The notes beneath the pieces were generated by a model. It had not been told where the DNA came from. It saw only the letters and a program-made list of their open reading frames with translations, and did no database searches. From contig JAOZFG010000009.1 in the NCBI GenBank assembly GCA_027491435.1, positions 1 to 33,708 on the forward strand: DNA of 33,708 nt. Reading direction: 5' to 3'. The DNA comes from Thermoproteota archaeon (lineage in GTDB: Archaea; Korarchaeota; Korarchaeia; Korarchaeales; Korarchaeaceae). Position 1 is the stretch's first letter, and every line of letters starts with the position of its first letter. Below are positions 2,942 through 20,546 of the stretch, piece by piece. The position numbers and the translations under genes are program-made.

Positions 2942-4011
2942 TCTCGTTAGAGCATGATGATTGGCTTGCCAAGACCAGGGGCTCCCTGATCAGGACCTAT
3001 AGGTTGAAGAAGCACTTCCCCGTCCTGGGAGGCGTGTTGAAGAGGCCCGTAGCCTGGGTCAAGGCGGTGGACGGCGTTGATATGTGGATAAGAAGGGGGG
3101 AGACTTTAGGGCTAGTTGGTGAGTCGGGCTGCGGGAAGACCACGCTGGGAAAGACCATGATAAGGTTGCTCGACCCGACAAGCGGTCACATATTCTACGA
3201 CGCCCCCGAAGATGTGATCAAGAGGATAATTGAGGGGGACACAAGCAAGGAGCTGAAGGAGCTCAGGAGGAAGTACGACCTGGCCTTCATGAAGGGAAGG
3301 GACTTGAAGAGGTTCAGGAGGAAGATGCAGATAGTCTTCCAGAACCCGTTGACCGCGCTTAACCCGAGGATGATGGTGAAGGACATAGTCGCCGAGCCCC
3401 TGGTGGTTCAGGGGATAGCCAAGGGTGAGGAGGCTTACGAGATGGCCCTCAAAGCCTTGGAAGACGTAGGCCTAGGCAAGGAGCACATGTGGCGTTATCC
3501 TCACGAGTTCTCTGGCGGACAAAGGCAGAGGATTGCCATAGCTAGGGCTCTAGTCCTCAAGCCAGAGTTCATAGTGCTGGACGAGCCAACCTCGGCTGTA
3601 GACGTCTCTGTTAGGGCCAGGCTCCTGAAGCTCTTTAAGGAACTTCAGGAGAAGTATGGGTTGACCTACCTCTTCATAAGCCACGACCTGTCCCAGGTTC
3701 AGGTGATAAGCGACAGGGTTGCAGTCATGTACCTGGGCAGGATAGTGGAGCTGGCCGACGCTGAGGAGATTTTTGAGAAGCCCCTGCACCCGTACACTCA
3801 GGCGCTGTTCTCCGCCAAACCCGTGCCGGATCCCACAGTTAAAAAGGAGAGGATAGTGTTAAAGGGGGACGTGCCCAGCCCCGTCAACCCGCCCTCAGGT
3901 TGTCGCTTCCACCCAAGGTGTTTCAGGAGATTCGAGCCCTGCGATAAGGAAGAGCCTCCCTTGGTGGAGGTGGAACCGGGGCACTGGGTTGCATGTCACC
4001 TTTACAGGTGA
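2938..4011 (+). CDS. dppF: Peptide ABC transporter ATP-binding protein, DppF/OppF family
   Basis: Second ATPase subunit, 357 aa, partner of the preceding one. Walker A is GESGCGKT, the Q-loop is QIVFQNP, the signature is FSGGQRQR, Walker B is FIVLDEPTS and the H-loop is ISHDL. The C-terminal oligopeptide extension has [10 protein letters not shown] and later Cys residues, in common with DppD. A charged insertion (about residues 95-120) precedes the Q-loop. The start is GTG 2938, overlapping the dppD stop by four bases (GTGA), which indicates translational coupling. With dppB, dppC and dppD it makes a transporter set lacking only the solute-binding protein, which is not in the window. Confidence 0.93.
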
Positions 4012-6008: not shown

Positions 6009-6764
6009 ATGAGGGAAACGCACGTAATCACCTGTGGGGTGAGCCTCCTAGTTAACACCGCCAGGGCCCTTAAGGGTAAGGGGATTCTAGACGACGAGAA
6101 GCTGAACTCTTTGAGCAACTATGCCAAGATGGAAGAGGTCTTGAACTCTCTATCGCCTGAGGAGAGGAAGGAGCTAAAGGATCAGATGCTGTCTTTCCTC
6201 AGACAGGATCCTAGGAAAGCTAGCGCCGAGATGAACGCTCTCCTGGGTTACTTGAAGGAAGCGGTAGGGGTTGAGGTGGAGAAGGTCCACCTGCTAGTCT
6301 CGGACACTCAGGCCGGTAAGATCACGGCAGACGCCCTGCTCAGTTATCTGGAAGAGGACATGGGCATTGACACCGACAGGCATGTGGTTCAGGGGTTCGG
6401 CTCCGAGGACTTCAAGAGGGCCCTTAAGAACCTGACTAACACGGTCAGGGGGGTAGTGAAATCCTCGAAGAACGTGGTCCTCAACCTGACTGGAGGTTTT
6501 AAGGCTGAGATAGCTGCCCTATCGGCTTTAGCTGCTGAAAGCGGGTTGAGAGCCTATTACATCCACGAGAAGTCCAAGAGAGTGGTTATGCTGCCCACGG
6601 CCGAGGAGCTTAAGGTTAGGGTGACGAGGTGGGAGAAAATAGGCGGAATCTTAGCCCTCCTGCTGGGTTTACCCTATGATTCCCTCTTGGGGTCGCCTGC
6701 TTTCATACCAATAACCGCGGCCTTGGCTGTGGTGACGCTTTGGATCATGTGGACCAAAGCCTGA
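6009..6764 (+). CDS. CARF-domain protein (APE2256/Csx family) with C-terminal membrane segment
   Basis: Protein of 251 aa. The N-terminus (VITCGVSLLVNTAR, S12) and the segment VVLNLTGGFKAEIAALSALA (T161-K165) are the two hallmark motifs of the CARF Rossmann domain in the APE2256 family. That family includes the Sulfolobus ring nucleases, which cleave cyclic tetra-adenylate; the Ser and Lys fall where catalytic or ligand-binding residues lie in them. After the domain comes a basic link (about 201-210) and two hydrophobic stretches, about 211-222 and 231-248, so it is probably membrane-tethered. No HEPN, nuclease or HTH domain is visible. No CRISPR array or cas gene is in the window. It stands alone between a divergent dsbB and the next ABC operon (gap of 82 bases). 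Confidence 0.85.
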   Translation: MRETHVITCGVSLLVNTARALKGKGILDDEKLNSLSNYAKMEEVLNSLSPEERKELKDQMLSFLRQDPRKASAEMNALLGYLKEAVGVEVEKVHLLVSDTQAGKITADALLSYLEEDMGIDTDRHVVQGFGSEDFKRALKNLTNTVRGVVKSSKNVVLNLTGGFKAEIAALSALAAESGLRAYYIHEKSKRVVMLPTAEELKVRVTRWEKIGGILALLLGLPYDSLLGSPAFIPITAALAVVTLWIMWTKA

Positions 6765-17776: not shown

Positions 17777-17814
17777 AAATTGTTTTATTAGTTATATTGC
17801 TAATTTAGTAAGTG

Positions 17815-18342
17815 ATGGCCATGACCGGGAGCAGGTTAGCGATCAAGGTGAGCCTGTTAGCTATGTTCTCCGTGCTGGCCTTCTTAGCGGCCATCATAGT
17901 TAAGCTAACCGTGAGTTATGGGGCCATAGTTTACGCTATAGTTTTGTTAGTGGGTGTATTGACACTCAAGGAGCCCTACGGCGCTACAGCGATATCGCTG
18001 ATAGCCGGCTTGCTGTACAGCTTTCAGTCCGCCCTTTTCCTGTTCATACTTGGGGCCTTCCTAGTTAGAGGACTTAGTATAGACGTTCTTTTTAACGCCC
18101 TAGGAGTCTACAAGACGAGGGATTACAGAATCTGGGCTATAGTGCTTACCATGACCGTCTCCAGCTTCCTGGCTGGAGTTTACCAGTACTTCTTCCTGGT
18201 CCTGTTCCTGAAGAAGCTCATCGATTTCGGAGCCTTCATAGTGTCGACAATATTCTTGGTGGCCTTAGTCTCCAACGCCTTAGCTGGATACTTGGTGCCC
18301 AAGTACGTGATGCCCAAGGTTGAGAAGGCCTTAAAGCTATGA
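17815..18342 (+). CDS. Integral membrane protein, ECF transporter S-component-like
   Basis: Protein of 175 aa with five or six helices and little outside the membrane, the size of vitamin-binding S components of ECF transporters. The stretch LIAGLLYSFQSALFLFILGAFLVRGLSIDVLF resembles the central helices of that group. No ECF ATPase or T component is in the window, so it would share them from elsewhere, if the assignment holds. Starts at GTG 17812, ATG 17815 and ATG 17821 are all possible; I give 17815. GAGGTGAT at its stop serves the radical SAM gene, so it is the first gene of that operon. It may import a cofactor or precursor used by the two enzymes. Confidence 0.6.
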   Translation: MAMTGSRLAIKVSLLAMFSVLAFLAAIIVKLTVSYGAIVYAIVLLVGVLTLKEPYGATAISLIAGLLYSFQSALFLFILGAFLVRGLSIDVLFNALGVYKTRDYRIWAIVLTMTVSSFLAGVYQYFFLVLFLKKLIDFGAFIVSTIFLVALVSNALAGYLVPKYVMPKVEKALKL

Positions 18343-18351
18343 GGTGATCTA

Positions 18352-19455
18352 ATGACGCATTTAAGGGCCTTATTCACGCCTAAAGATCCTTTAGAAGATG
18401 CAGAGAGGGCGGCTATGGCTTCTTTGAGGAGAGGAGGTGTTAGCAGCGTTATCTGGGTGGTAACCGAGAGGTGCAATCTCAGGTGTGTCCACTGCTACGA
18501 AGGGGGCAGAGAGCTACCCAAGGAGCTCGGCAAGGAGGAAGCTTTGAAAGTCGTAGATAAGCTATATGAAGCCGGAAAACCGCTTACCTTCATATCCGGA
18601 GGGGAACCTCTGCTTAGAGACGATATAATGGAGATACTGGGCAGGCTGAAAGATCTGGGATTTAGGGTGATTCTTAGCACTAACGGAACCTTAGTTACAC
18701 GTGAAGTGGCCAAAGAGCTGTCTAGAATAGGGGTGGACAACGTGGCAATACCCCTTTACGGGCCTAGGGAGTTCCACGACAGCTTCACAAGGGTGCCTGG
18801 ATCGCACGATAAGGTGATTAACTCGCTGAAACTCCTGAGCGATTTGGGGGTTGGATTAACCGTTAAGACGGTAGTCGCCAAGAGCGTGATGCCTCACATC
18901 AACTACATATTCGACGTGGCCGAGCAATATGGTGCTAGAGCTGTGTACCTCTGTGATTTCATTCCTATAGGGAGGGGGGCTTATCTCAAGCACGAGGTTC
19001 CGACTAAGGATCAATGGAGGAGCCTCCTAGACTCATTTATAGAGAAGATGATCCTGGGGAACGAATACGACGGCGTGGAGATAGATATAGGGCTTCACCC
19101 CTCCACGGCCATATACGTCATGAGGAGGTTGGAGGAGCTGGGATATGACGTGTCTCAGGCCAGGAGTAAAATGGAGAGAAGAAGGCTTTCTGTGGAGGGT
19201 AGAGGTTTCCTATCCATATCCCCTCAGGGAGACGTTCTTTTAAGCAATTACCTGCCGATAAAACTGGGCAACGTGCTTGAGGACGACTTGAAGGAGATCC
19301 TCGAGAACCCCATATACAGGGATGCCGGCGATTCGAGTAAGTTGAAGGGGAAGTGTGGTTCTTGCCCTTACAAGGAGCTCTGTGGAGGGTCCAGGGTAAA
19401 GGCCTTCGTCTACACTGGAGATCTGCTCGGGGAGGATCCGACTTGCGTCATATGA
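18352..19455 (+). CDS. Radical SAM/SPASM protein, AhbC/NirJ-like
   Basis: Enzyme of 367 aa. The radical SAM cluster is C41-x3-C45-x2-C48 (TERCNLRCVHCYEG), followed by FISGGEPLLRDD (the GGE motif) and STNGTLV. The C-terminal SPASM-type site has C335, C338, C344 and C365 (GKCGSCPYKELCGGSR, then GDLLGEDPTC). The ending CGGSRxxAxxxTGDxxxEDPxC is characteristic of AhbC, AhbD and NirJ, which remodel haem side chains, and of related peptide-modifying enzymes. Its four-base overlap with a second such enzyme recalls the AhbC/AhbD pair. No other haem genes are present, so the substrate is undecided. Confidence 0.85.
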   Translation: MTHLRALFTPKDPLEDAERAAMASLRRGGVSSVIWVVTERCNLRCVHCYEGGRELPKELGKEEALKVVDKLYEAGKPLTFISGGEPLLRDDIMEILGRLKDLGFRVILSTNGTLVTREVAKELSRIGVDNVAIPLYGPREFHDSFTRVPGSHDKVINSLKLLSDLGVGLTVKTVVAKSVMPHINYIFDVAEQYGARAVYLCDFIPIGRGAYLKHEVPTKDQWRSLLDSFIEKMILGNEYDGVEIDIGLHPSTAIYVMRRLEELGYDVSQARSKMERRRLSVEGRGFLSISPQGDVLLSNYLPIKLGNVLEDDLKEILENPIYRDAGDSSKLKGKCGSCPYKELCGGSRVKAFVYTGDLLGEDPTCVI

Positions 19456-20546
19456 ACTTCAACGAGAGGCCCATCCTGGTCTTCTGGGAGACCACCAAGG
19501 CGTGTAAGTTGAAGTGCAAACACTGCAGGGCAGAGGCGATACCTGAGCCGCTGCCTGGTGAGCTGACCACTGAAGAGGGCTTCAAACTCATCGAGGAGCT
19601 GACTAAGTTCGGGAAGCCTTATCCGATCCTCATATTAACTGGAGGCGATCCTATGCTCAGGCCCGACCTTGAAGAGCTGCTGACCTATGCTGAAAGTAAG
19701 GGCGTAAAGGTGGGAGTGGCCCCTGCCGTAACGGAGCTTCTGAAGGAGAGGTTAAACCTACTCAGAAAGCATGGAGTTAGGTACATATCAATAAGCCTGG
19801 ACGGCATGAAGGAGACCCATGAGAGGATAAGAGGTGTAGATGGCCACTTTAAAGAAACGGTAGAGCTGCTCAAATCGCTAAAGGGGGATTGGATGCTGCA
19901 GGTCAACACGCTCGTCTCCAAGGAGACGGTAAACGACCTTCCCAAGGTGGCCAAACTGTTAAAGGACTTGGGTATAAACGTGTGGGAGCTCTTCTTCCTG
20001 GTTAAAGTCGGAAGAGGGACTGAGCTTGAAGAGCTCACCCCCGAGGAGAATAGAGACGTCTCTCACTTCCTATTCGAGGTTTCTAGGTATGGATTCGAGG
20101 TAAGGACCGTAGAAGCTCCTTTCTTCAGGAGGGTCTACTTGACCAGGTTAAGAGATGGGCTTAGCGACTTGAAGGAGGTTGTTGAGCGTTATAGCCTAGG
20201 AGAGCTGTACGTAAAATTAACAAAAGAGCTTATTAGTTTGCTAGGTGAGCCAGGCAAGCCCAAAGAGCTTAAATCGGCCTTCACGAGGGATGGATATGGT
20301 GTAATATTCGTATCTTATGATGGCAACGTCTATCCAAGCGGATTCGCCCCTTATAGCTTGGGAAACGTCAAAGAGGATAGCCTGGTCAGTATATACAGGA
20401 GCCATCCCGTACTGATTAAGATAAGGGCTGGGGAATTCAAAGGGAAGTGTGGAACCTGTGAGTACAGGGAGGTATGTGGGGGAAGCAGAGCTAGGGCCCT
20501 GGCCGCAGGAGACATACTCGGGGAGGACCCTGGCTGCCCATTTTAG
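19452..20546 (+). CDS. Radical SAM/SPASM protein, AhbD-like (TIGR04053-type)
   Basis: Enzyme of 364 aa starting at ATG 19452, which overlaps the upstream stop as ATGA; a longer reading from 19353 is inside the first enzyme. The cluster site is C18-x3-C22-x2-C25 (TTKACKLKCKHCRAEA). The next motifs, GKPYPILILTGGDPMLRPDL and RYISISLDGMKETHERIRG, closely follow AhbD/TIGR04053 proteins. The SPASM site has C333, C336, C342 and C362. AhbD converts Fe-coproporphyrin to haem by decarboxylating propionates; relatives modify peptides. The tandem pair behind an S-component-like gene suggests one pathway on one substrate. Confidence 0.87.
   Translation: MNFNERPILVFWETTKACKLKCKHCRAEAIPEPLPGELTTEEGFKLIEELTKFGKPYPILILTGGDPMLRPDLEELLTYAESKGVKVGVAPAVTELLKERLNLLRKHGVRYISISLDGMKETHERIRGVDGHFKETVELLKSLKGDWMLQVNTLVSKETVNDLPKVAKLLKDLGINVWELFFLVKVGRGTELEELTPEENRDVSHFLFEVSRYGFEVRTVEAPFFRRVYLTRLRDGLSDLKEVVERYSLGELYVKLTKELISLLGEPGKPKELKSAFTRDGYGVIFVSYDGNVYPSGFAPYSLGNVKEDSLVSIYRSHPVLIKIRAGEFKGKCGTCEYREVCGGSRARALAAGDILGEDPGCPF

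Follow-up and report, generated by a model that had tools for sequence, protein, structure and literature searches.

For the ring nuclease Sso2081 it has been reported that the motif I serine matters for the cutting of cyclic tetra-adenylate (cA4), while the preceding threonine does not, and that the motif II lysine acts on the cleaved phosphate; in Sis0455 the motif I serine is seemingly less critical (PMC10018336). Both are Crn1 enzymes, as are those of the Sso1393/Sis0811 type (CARF7; PF09651, TIGR02619), which have a C-terminal winged helix of their own (PMC10018336). The CARF-tail protein described here is encoded on a stretch of 33.7 kb (the window), which is the entire contig C23 of a genome of 1.64 Mb in 43 contigs. 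Its CARF domain corresponds to that of the Sso1393/Sis0811 type from end to end and has both the motif I Ser and the motif II Lys, but instead of the winged helix the protein carries a hydrophobic tail of about 45 aa C-terminal to the CARF domain; residues 201-251 comprise two predicted hydrophobic helices and had no HTH match. With Sso2081 and Sis0455 it has the CARF fold (Foldseek, 9.9e-5) and the same two residues in common, but it has no recognised helical lid and no motif II Arg, and the identity in the structural alignment is about 13%. The second nearest fold family is Cami1 (CARF-RelE), which belongs to the same CARF7 clade in PADLOC. In contrast to Cami1, the CARF-tail protein has no RelE domain and ends in the hydrophobic tail, and the PADLOC CARF_RelE matches covered residues 3-197 only, i.e., the CARF part.

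Further systems are comparable with respect to the predicted membrane location. Other CARF-membrane proteins depolarise cells (PMC10808066; PMC12642688), and the membrane effectors Cam1, Cap1, and Csx23 share with the CARF-tail protein the layout of a messenger-binding domain plus membrane segments. In all three the membrane part is N-terminal, whereas it is C-terminal here and is joined to a CARF domain of a ring nuclease clade. The order of Cam1, an N-terminal TM helix followed by a C-terminal CARF domain (PMC10808066), is thus reversed, and the CARF domain is not of the Cam1 type, the Cam1 chains 8t66 and 8t65 being found at Foldseek ranks 35 and 39 (E 3e-3 to 4e-3). Cap1 consists of a TM pair, a CARF-like domain, and then DUF4579 (PMC12642688); the CARF-tail protein has its tail at the C-terminus and no further domain. 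The membrane-associated DHH-DHHA1 nuclease (MAD) of S. islandicus degrades cOA at the membrane (PMC7854544; PMC7694759). The CARF-tail protein would resemble it as a cOA-degrading enzyme at this location, but MAD has an unrelated fold and is metal-dependent, while the protein studied here is a CARF protein without a DHH-DHHA1 match in Pfam. CARF-TM fusions have been predicted earlier in bulk (PMC9704534), and they likewise combine a CARF domain with a TM segment; the respective PADLOC model, CARF3--CARF_TM, represents another CARF clade (1.3e-5 for CARF3 versus 1.3e-41 for CARF7). The literature searched contained no Crn1-type protein with such a membrane-like tail at its C-terminus, and the main CARF classification may list one.

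The gene, its contig, and its CARF domain

The open reading frame starts with ATG, encodes 251 aa, and occupies exactly the positions given in the first-pass annotation, 6009-6764 on the plus strand. The position of the start codon is common to the orthologs in an alignment of five sequences. The coordinates of all features are listed in Table 1.

Three profile searches agreed that the protein is of the APE2256-type CARF family, as had been recognised at first sight. Pfam Cas_APE2256 (PF09651) matched residues 69-197 with E=1.2e-30 and 106.6 bits (cut-off 24.8), TIGR02619 was passed with 4.1e-22 and 78.6 bits (cut-off 37.45), and PADLOC CARF7 matched residues 3-197 with 1.3e-41, which is why the domain was set to residues 1-197. 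The CARF identity is far from chance. The closest solved structures in a phmmer search, aligned over residues 1-198, were the ring nucleases Sis0811 (7pq2, 1.2e-12) and SSO1393 (3qyf, 1.4e-6). The predicted structure had a mean pLDDT of 82, with core blocks mostly at 80-95, and its ten best Foldseek matches were all chains of Sis0811 or SSO1393 (E 5e-11 for Sis0811), followed by weaker matches to Cami1, Sso2081, Csa3, and Cam1. By sequence and predicted fold, the CARF domain belongs with the Sso1393/Sis0811 type of Crn1 ring nucleases.

Ser12 and Lys165 are unchanged in all five orthologs, at 46-59% identity. Motif I reads G-V-S versus G-T-S in the full motif, and motif II is without the Arg of Sso2081, which is also missing in Sis0811 (G-L-K). 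Lys165 is read as the putative counterpart of the motif II Lys of Sso2081 by way of Sis0811, not from a direct alignment. The NCBIfam ring nuclease equivalog NF040951 was not reached (43.1 bits, cut-off 600), and therefore the protein is called a Crn1 relative and not an equivalog of Sso1393/Sis0811. A second APE2256 gene in the genome was considered and rejected, as none scored above the cut-off and the only further match, on contig C16, was below threshold. PF09623, a second CARF family seen beside orthologs, was not found in the genome either.

Table 1. Features of the CARF-tail gene and its product (positions in the window).
Feature	Position	Strand	Basis
CARF-tail gene, 251 aa	6009..6764	+	ORF; Pfam, NCBIfam, and PADLOC matches; orthologs with equal length and start
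CARF domain, aa 1-197, Sis0811/SSO1393-like	6009..6599	+	phmmer to 7pq2 (aa 1-198); ten best Foldseek matches Sis0811/SSO1393
Ser12, motif I (G-V-S), aligns with S12 of Sis0811	6042..6044	+	Alignment; invariant in five orthologs
Lys165, motif II (G-F-K), aligns with K169 of Sis0811	6501..6503	+	Alignment; invariant in five orthologs
Linker, aa 198-210, Lys/Arg-rich, ahead of the tail	6600..6638	+	Sequence and alignment; topology inferred
Hydrophobic stretch 1, aa 211-229	6639..6695	+	Predicted helix 207-219, then turn
Hydrophobic stretch 2, aa 230-249	6696..6755	+	Predicted helix 232-249; stronger membrane-segment candidate

The window genes that were scanned have commonplace products, among them ABC transporters, DsbB, radical SAM enzymes, a glycosyltransferase, and an iron-dependent repressor; no cas gene was among them, and no CRISPR array was present. 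A remnant array was also rejected, because neither direct repeats nor the repeat of the relatives (up to 3 mismatches) revealed one. The early statement that there is no array or cas gene nearby holds for the 33.7 kb as far as the genes were scanned. The gene is located 6 kb from the left end of the contig, and the sequence further to the left is therefore out of view. A conserved neighbourhood with dsbB was not found: in 12 other genomes of the genus, about 1.5 kb were read around each DsbB homolog, and these stretches contained neither the CARF gene nor the ABC gene. A viral or plasmid origin was rejected, because viral contigs, searched by tblastn, yielded no relative and phage records had none either; the sole plasmid relative is a distant CARF protein from Allomeiothermus (32%).

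Two other regions of the window were recorded. A 43-nt repeat (86%) at 2868-2910 and 3962-4004 lies at the 3' ends of two adjoining oligopeptide ABC ATPase genes and probably results from tandem gene duplication or conversion. At 18352-20546 there are two adjoining radical SAM/SPASM genes, the substrate of which is not evident from the sequence, preceded by an ORF without Pfam match (17812-18342).

The hydrophobic tail

The two hydrophobic stretches that had been noticed behind the CARF domain were confirmed by hydrophobicity scales and by the orthologs. The mean Kyte-Doolittle value over 19 residues was 1.46 for residues 211-229 and reached up to 1.94 within residues 226-250. By composition alone the second stretch is unremarkable, as 1.94 was also reached in 955 of 5000 cases when the whole protein was shuffled, and one cytosolic control protein had a value of 2.05. 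On the Wimley-White octanol scale, the best value of the tail was -10.6 kcal/mol, while none of the 15 cytosolic Cas/Csa3 proteins taken from this genome as background went below -6.7. Three orthologs had octanol values of -10.4 to -11.7 kcal/mol, while that of the G018 ortholog was just -3.0. At the equivalent place, the tail is strongly hydrophobic in four of five sequences, including the window copy, and weakly so in G018, in which it is amphipathic.

Two structure models, computed with different lead sequences, contained helices at 207-219 and 230/232-249, and the turn after the first helix has a conserved Pro222 and DSLLG in four of the five sequences. The pLDDT of these helices was about 40-59, versus mostly 80-95 in the core, and in both monomer models they lie apart from the confident core structure. 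The models hence do not confidently assign these helices to the soluble fold; buried helices of such a fold were the outcome that the first-pass annotation had named as speaking against a membrane segment. The tail is also much more variable than the core: 4 of 44 positions are invariant in the tail versus 64 of 197 in the core, and outside of one close pair the identity is 19-50% versus 46-61%. It follows that the hydrophobic character was kept while the residues were not, as expected of an anchor. Judged from sequence and models, the tail is best explained as a loosely constrained hydrophobic anchor, and membrane insertion is predicted, with the positive side, i.e., the Lys/Arg-rich linker, probably in the cytosol.

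Orthologs and cyclic oligoadenylate machinery

The gene was found in 5 of the 29 genomes of the phylum sample, in all five cases together with the tail, and a scan of a wider genome collection returned two loci, which are those of G011 and G002. CRISPR arrays are near the orthologs in three of the four relatives (G011, G002, and G018), and a Csx1-like gene is directly beside the ortholog in two of the four (G017 and G011). In G011, the ortholog is followed downstream, at a distance of about 0.1 kb, by an array of three repeats, and upstream of it are a Csx1-like gene and a second CARF gene; the families of these neighbours were assigned from the near-identical copies in G017, where the ortholog has the same two neighbours. 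The G002 ortholog has an array of about nine repeats on its contig, and another contig of this genome, C62, ends in the identical repeat and carries a Cas10 fragment with GGDD as well as a Csx1-like gene. The G018 ortholog is part of a CRISPR cluster with a 42-repeat array and type I cas3/cas5/cas7-like genes, and a GGDD Cas10 is encoded about 16 kb away. Because of these neighbourhoods, the designation as an "orphan" is correct for this contig and this assembly, but not for the family. Across the phylum, a Cas10 is present in four of the five carriers versus 10 of the 24 non-carriers, and thus the carriage of the gene and of Cas10 are linked only loosely. In the remaining carrier, the 96%-complete draft G017, no Cas10 or RAMP was detected.

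The Csx1-like neighbour in G011 (L013 10001-11964 (+)) is split over two frames and apparently broken, while the adjoining CARF-tail gene is intact. A Csx1-like gene copy in G014 is also interrupted.

The genome itself outside of contig C23 was read as stretches around matches. A type III locus elsewhere had been suggested as a point to check, and two type III-B loci were found, on contigs C25 and C43. The GGDD motif is intact in the Cas10 on C43, while the Cas10 on C25 has GGDE. Contig C43 also carries Cas6 and a Csa3 and, judged from the sequences, further genes resembling Cas4, Cas1, and a type I module. A candidate for a Csx1-like CARF-HEPN protein of 547 aa is encoded on contig C27 (L046 12580-14223 (-)). 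Its best stretch has 35% identity to the Csx1-like neighbour of the orthologs, and it has the CARF-type motif DLSQGWN and the HEPN motif R-x4-H (RNLVAH) at a place that is conserved between both proteins. The absence of a cyclic oligoadenylate system, which would have spoken against a role in such signalling, is thus not the case. The producer, the effector candidate, and the off-switch candidate are scattered in this genome, while they are clustered in some relatives; the CRISPR repeat of the relatives was not found elsewhere in the genome.

Several side observations were made at these loci. The Cas10 gene with GGDE (C25, L016 4272-7628 (+)) contains a perfect 39-nt direct repeat (5482 and 5554). 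The Csx1-like gene on C27 is away from cas genes and adjoins genes resembling carbamoyl-phosphate synthase subunits. A family of about 200 aa occurs on C43 (L036 1429-2022 (+)), at L012 1956-2582 (+), and at L013 9362-9991 (+), with either Cas6/Cas1-like genes or the Csx1-like gene as neighbours; it has no Pfam match, and the L012 copy has a weak SAVED4 match (9.5e-8).

Possible functions of the CARF-tail protein

The first-pass annotation had left the choice between a membrane effector and a tethered ring nuclease. The second half of this pair is favoured, because the nearest relatives are the Crn1 enzymes Sis0811/SSO1393 and the key residues are kept, and we consider it somewhat probable that the protein is a membrane-anchored Crn1-type cA4 ring nuclease that acts in trans. 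Computation showed the CARF fold and the family closest to it, the conservation of the key residues, the presence of the tail, the CRISPR surroundings of the orthologs, and a Cas10 together with a Csx1-like candidate in the genome. A short C-terminal hydrophobic hairpin would anchor the enzyme to the inner face of the membrane. The type III-B Cas10 of the C43 locus would sense viral RNA and make cA4, which would activate a Csx1-like RNase, for which the C27 protein is the candidate. A dimer of CARF domains would then bind cA4 on the cytosolic face and cut the messenger via Ser12 and Lys165, so that the alarm would be ended. Cleavage of cA4 to A2>P by a dimer is characteristic of the Sso1393/Sis0811 type. 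We infer dimer formation, cA4 as the ligand, its cleavage, membrane insertion, and action in trans. The rank of Sis0811/SSO1393 at the top by sequence and by fold, the two invariant residues, the genome with a GGDD Cas10 and a Csx1-like candidate but no second APE2256 gene, the Csx1-like gene beside the orthologs of G017 and G011, and the arrays near those of G011, G002, and G018 all count for this reading. The low NF040951 score (43 bits versus 600), the G-V-S of motif I, the motif II without the Sso2081 Arg, the weak tail of G018, the G017 draft without a detected Cas10, and the loose link between carriage and Cas10 count against it.

The effector half of the early proposal is rather unlikely, yet it has the most in its favour among the alternatives. 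Binding of cA4 would rearrange the tail hairpins, which would oligomerise and open or disturb the membrane, and the CARF domain would slowly destroy the activator, so that the protein would be a self-limiting effector that works in the manner of Cam1 or Cap1 but has its membrane part at the opposite end. CARF-membrane fusions are known effectors (Cam1, PMC10808066; Cap1 with its TM pair, PMC12642688), and the two hydrophobic stretches per chain could make a hairpin, but the first stretch is short and marginal, and it would be odd for a pore to be the least conserved part of the protein and weak in G018. The kept catalytic residues do not decide against an effector, because Cami1, which comes next in the fold comparison, combines an effector role with ring nuclease activity (PMC12409355); the nearest relatives, however, are ring nucleases of the stand-alone kind, and another candidate for the effector, the Csx1-like protein, is encoded next to orthologs or elsewhere in the genome. 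In its most explicit form, in which a cA4-bound cytosolic dimer in reverse-Cam1 topology would disrupt the membrane via the C-terminal hairpin and, as its own timer, would destroy cA4 and keep the attack transient, this proposal is unlikely.

It is quite improbable that the protein is a soluble ring nuclease in which the two C-terminal helices would form a lid or a dimer clamp, packed against the dimer or against one another, and would have no role at the membrane. The lid of Sso2081 is indeed a C-terminal helical insert (PMC10018336), the G018 tail is amphipathic, and the Kyte-Doolittle value of the window tail is within the range of shuffling; however, the octanol values of four of the five sequences (-10.4 to -11.7) are beyond the 15 cytosolic Cas/Csa3 proteins, and the two models do not confidently place the tail on the monomer. 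It is very improbable that the protein is a CARF sensor that does not cleave, or that it serves another CRISPR type as a regulator of a type I module or of arrays: the type I-like cas3/cas5/cas7 operon adjoining the G018 copy, the missing detection of Cas10 in G017, and the missing Arg in motif II would agree with it, but the key residues and the frame are kept at 46-59% identity, the Arg is also absent from Sis0811 (G-L-K), and G018 has the GGDD Cas10 about 16 kb from the gene.

A published ring nuclease census was restricted to proteins that are no longer than 250 aa and are encoded at most 6 kb from a type III locus (PMC12409355). With 251 aa and on a contig without cas genes, the gene would fail both filters, which shows a blind spot of the census. 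If the protein acts as an effector, its topology would be reversed and its action on the membrane would be self-limiting. What it looks like is an off-switch of unusual shape, which, judging from sequence and models, is probably tied to the cell membrane by its greasy tail. Should it be an anchored enzyme of the Crn1 type, the CARF family would have its own means of bringing the off-switch of type III CRISPR to the membrane, in addition to the unrelated nuclease MAD, and this placement, if true, would be relevant to the site and the timing of the alarm's shut-off.
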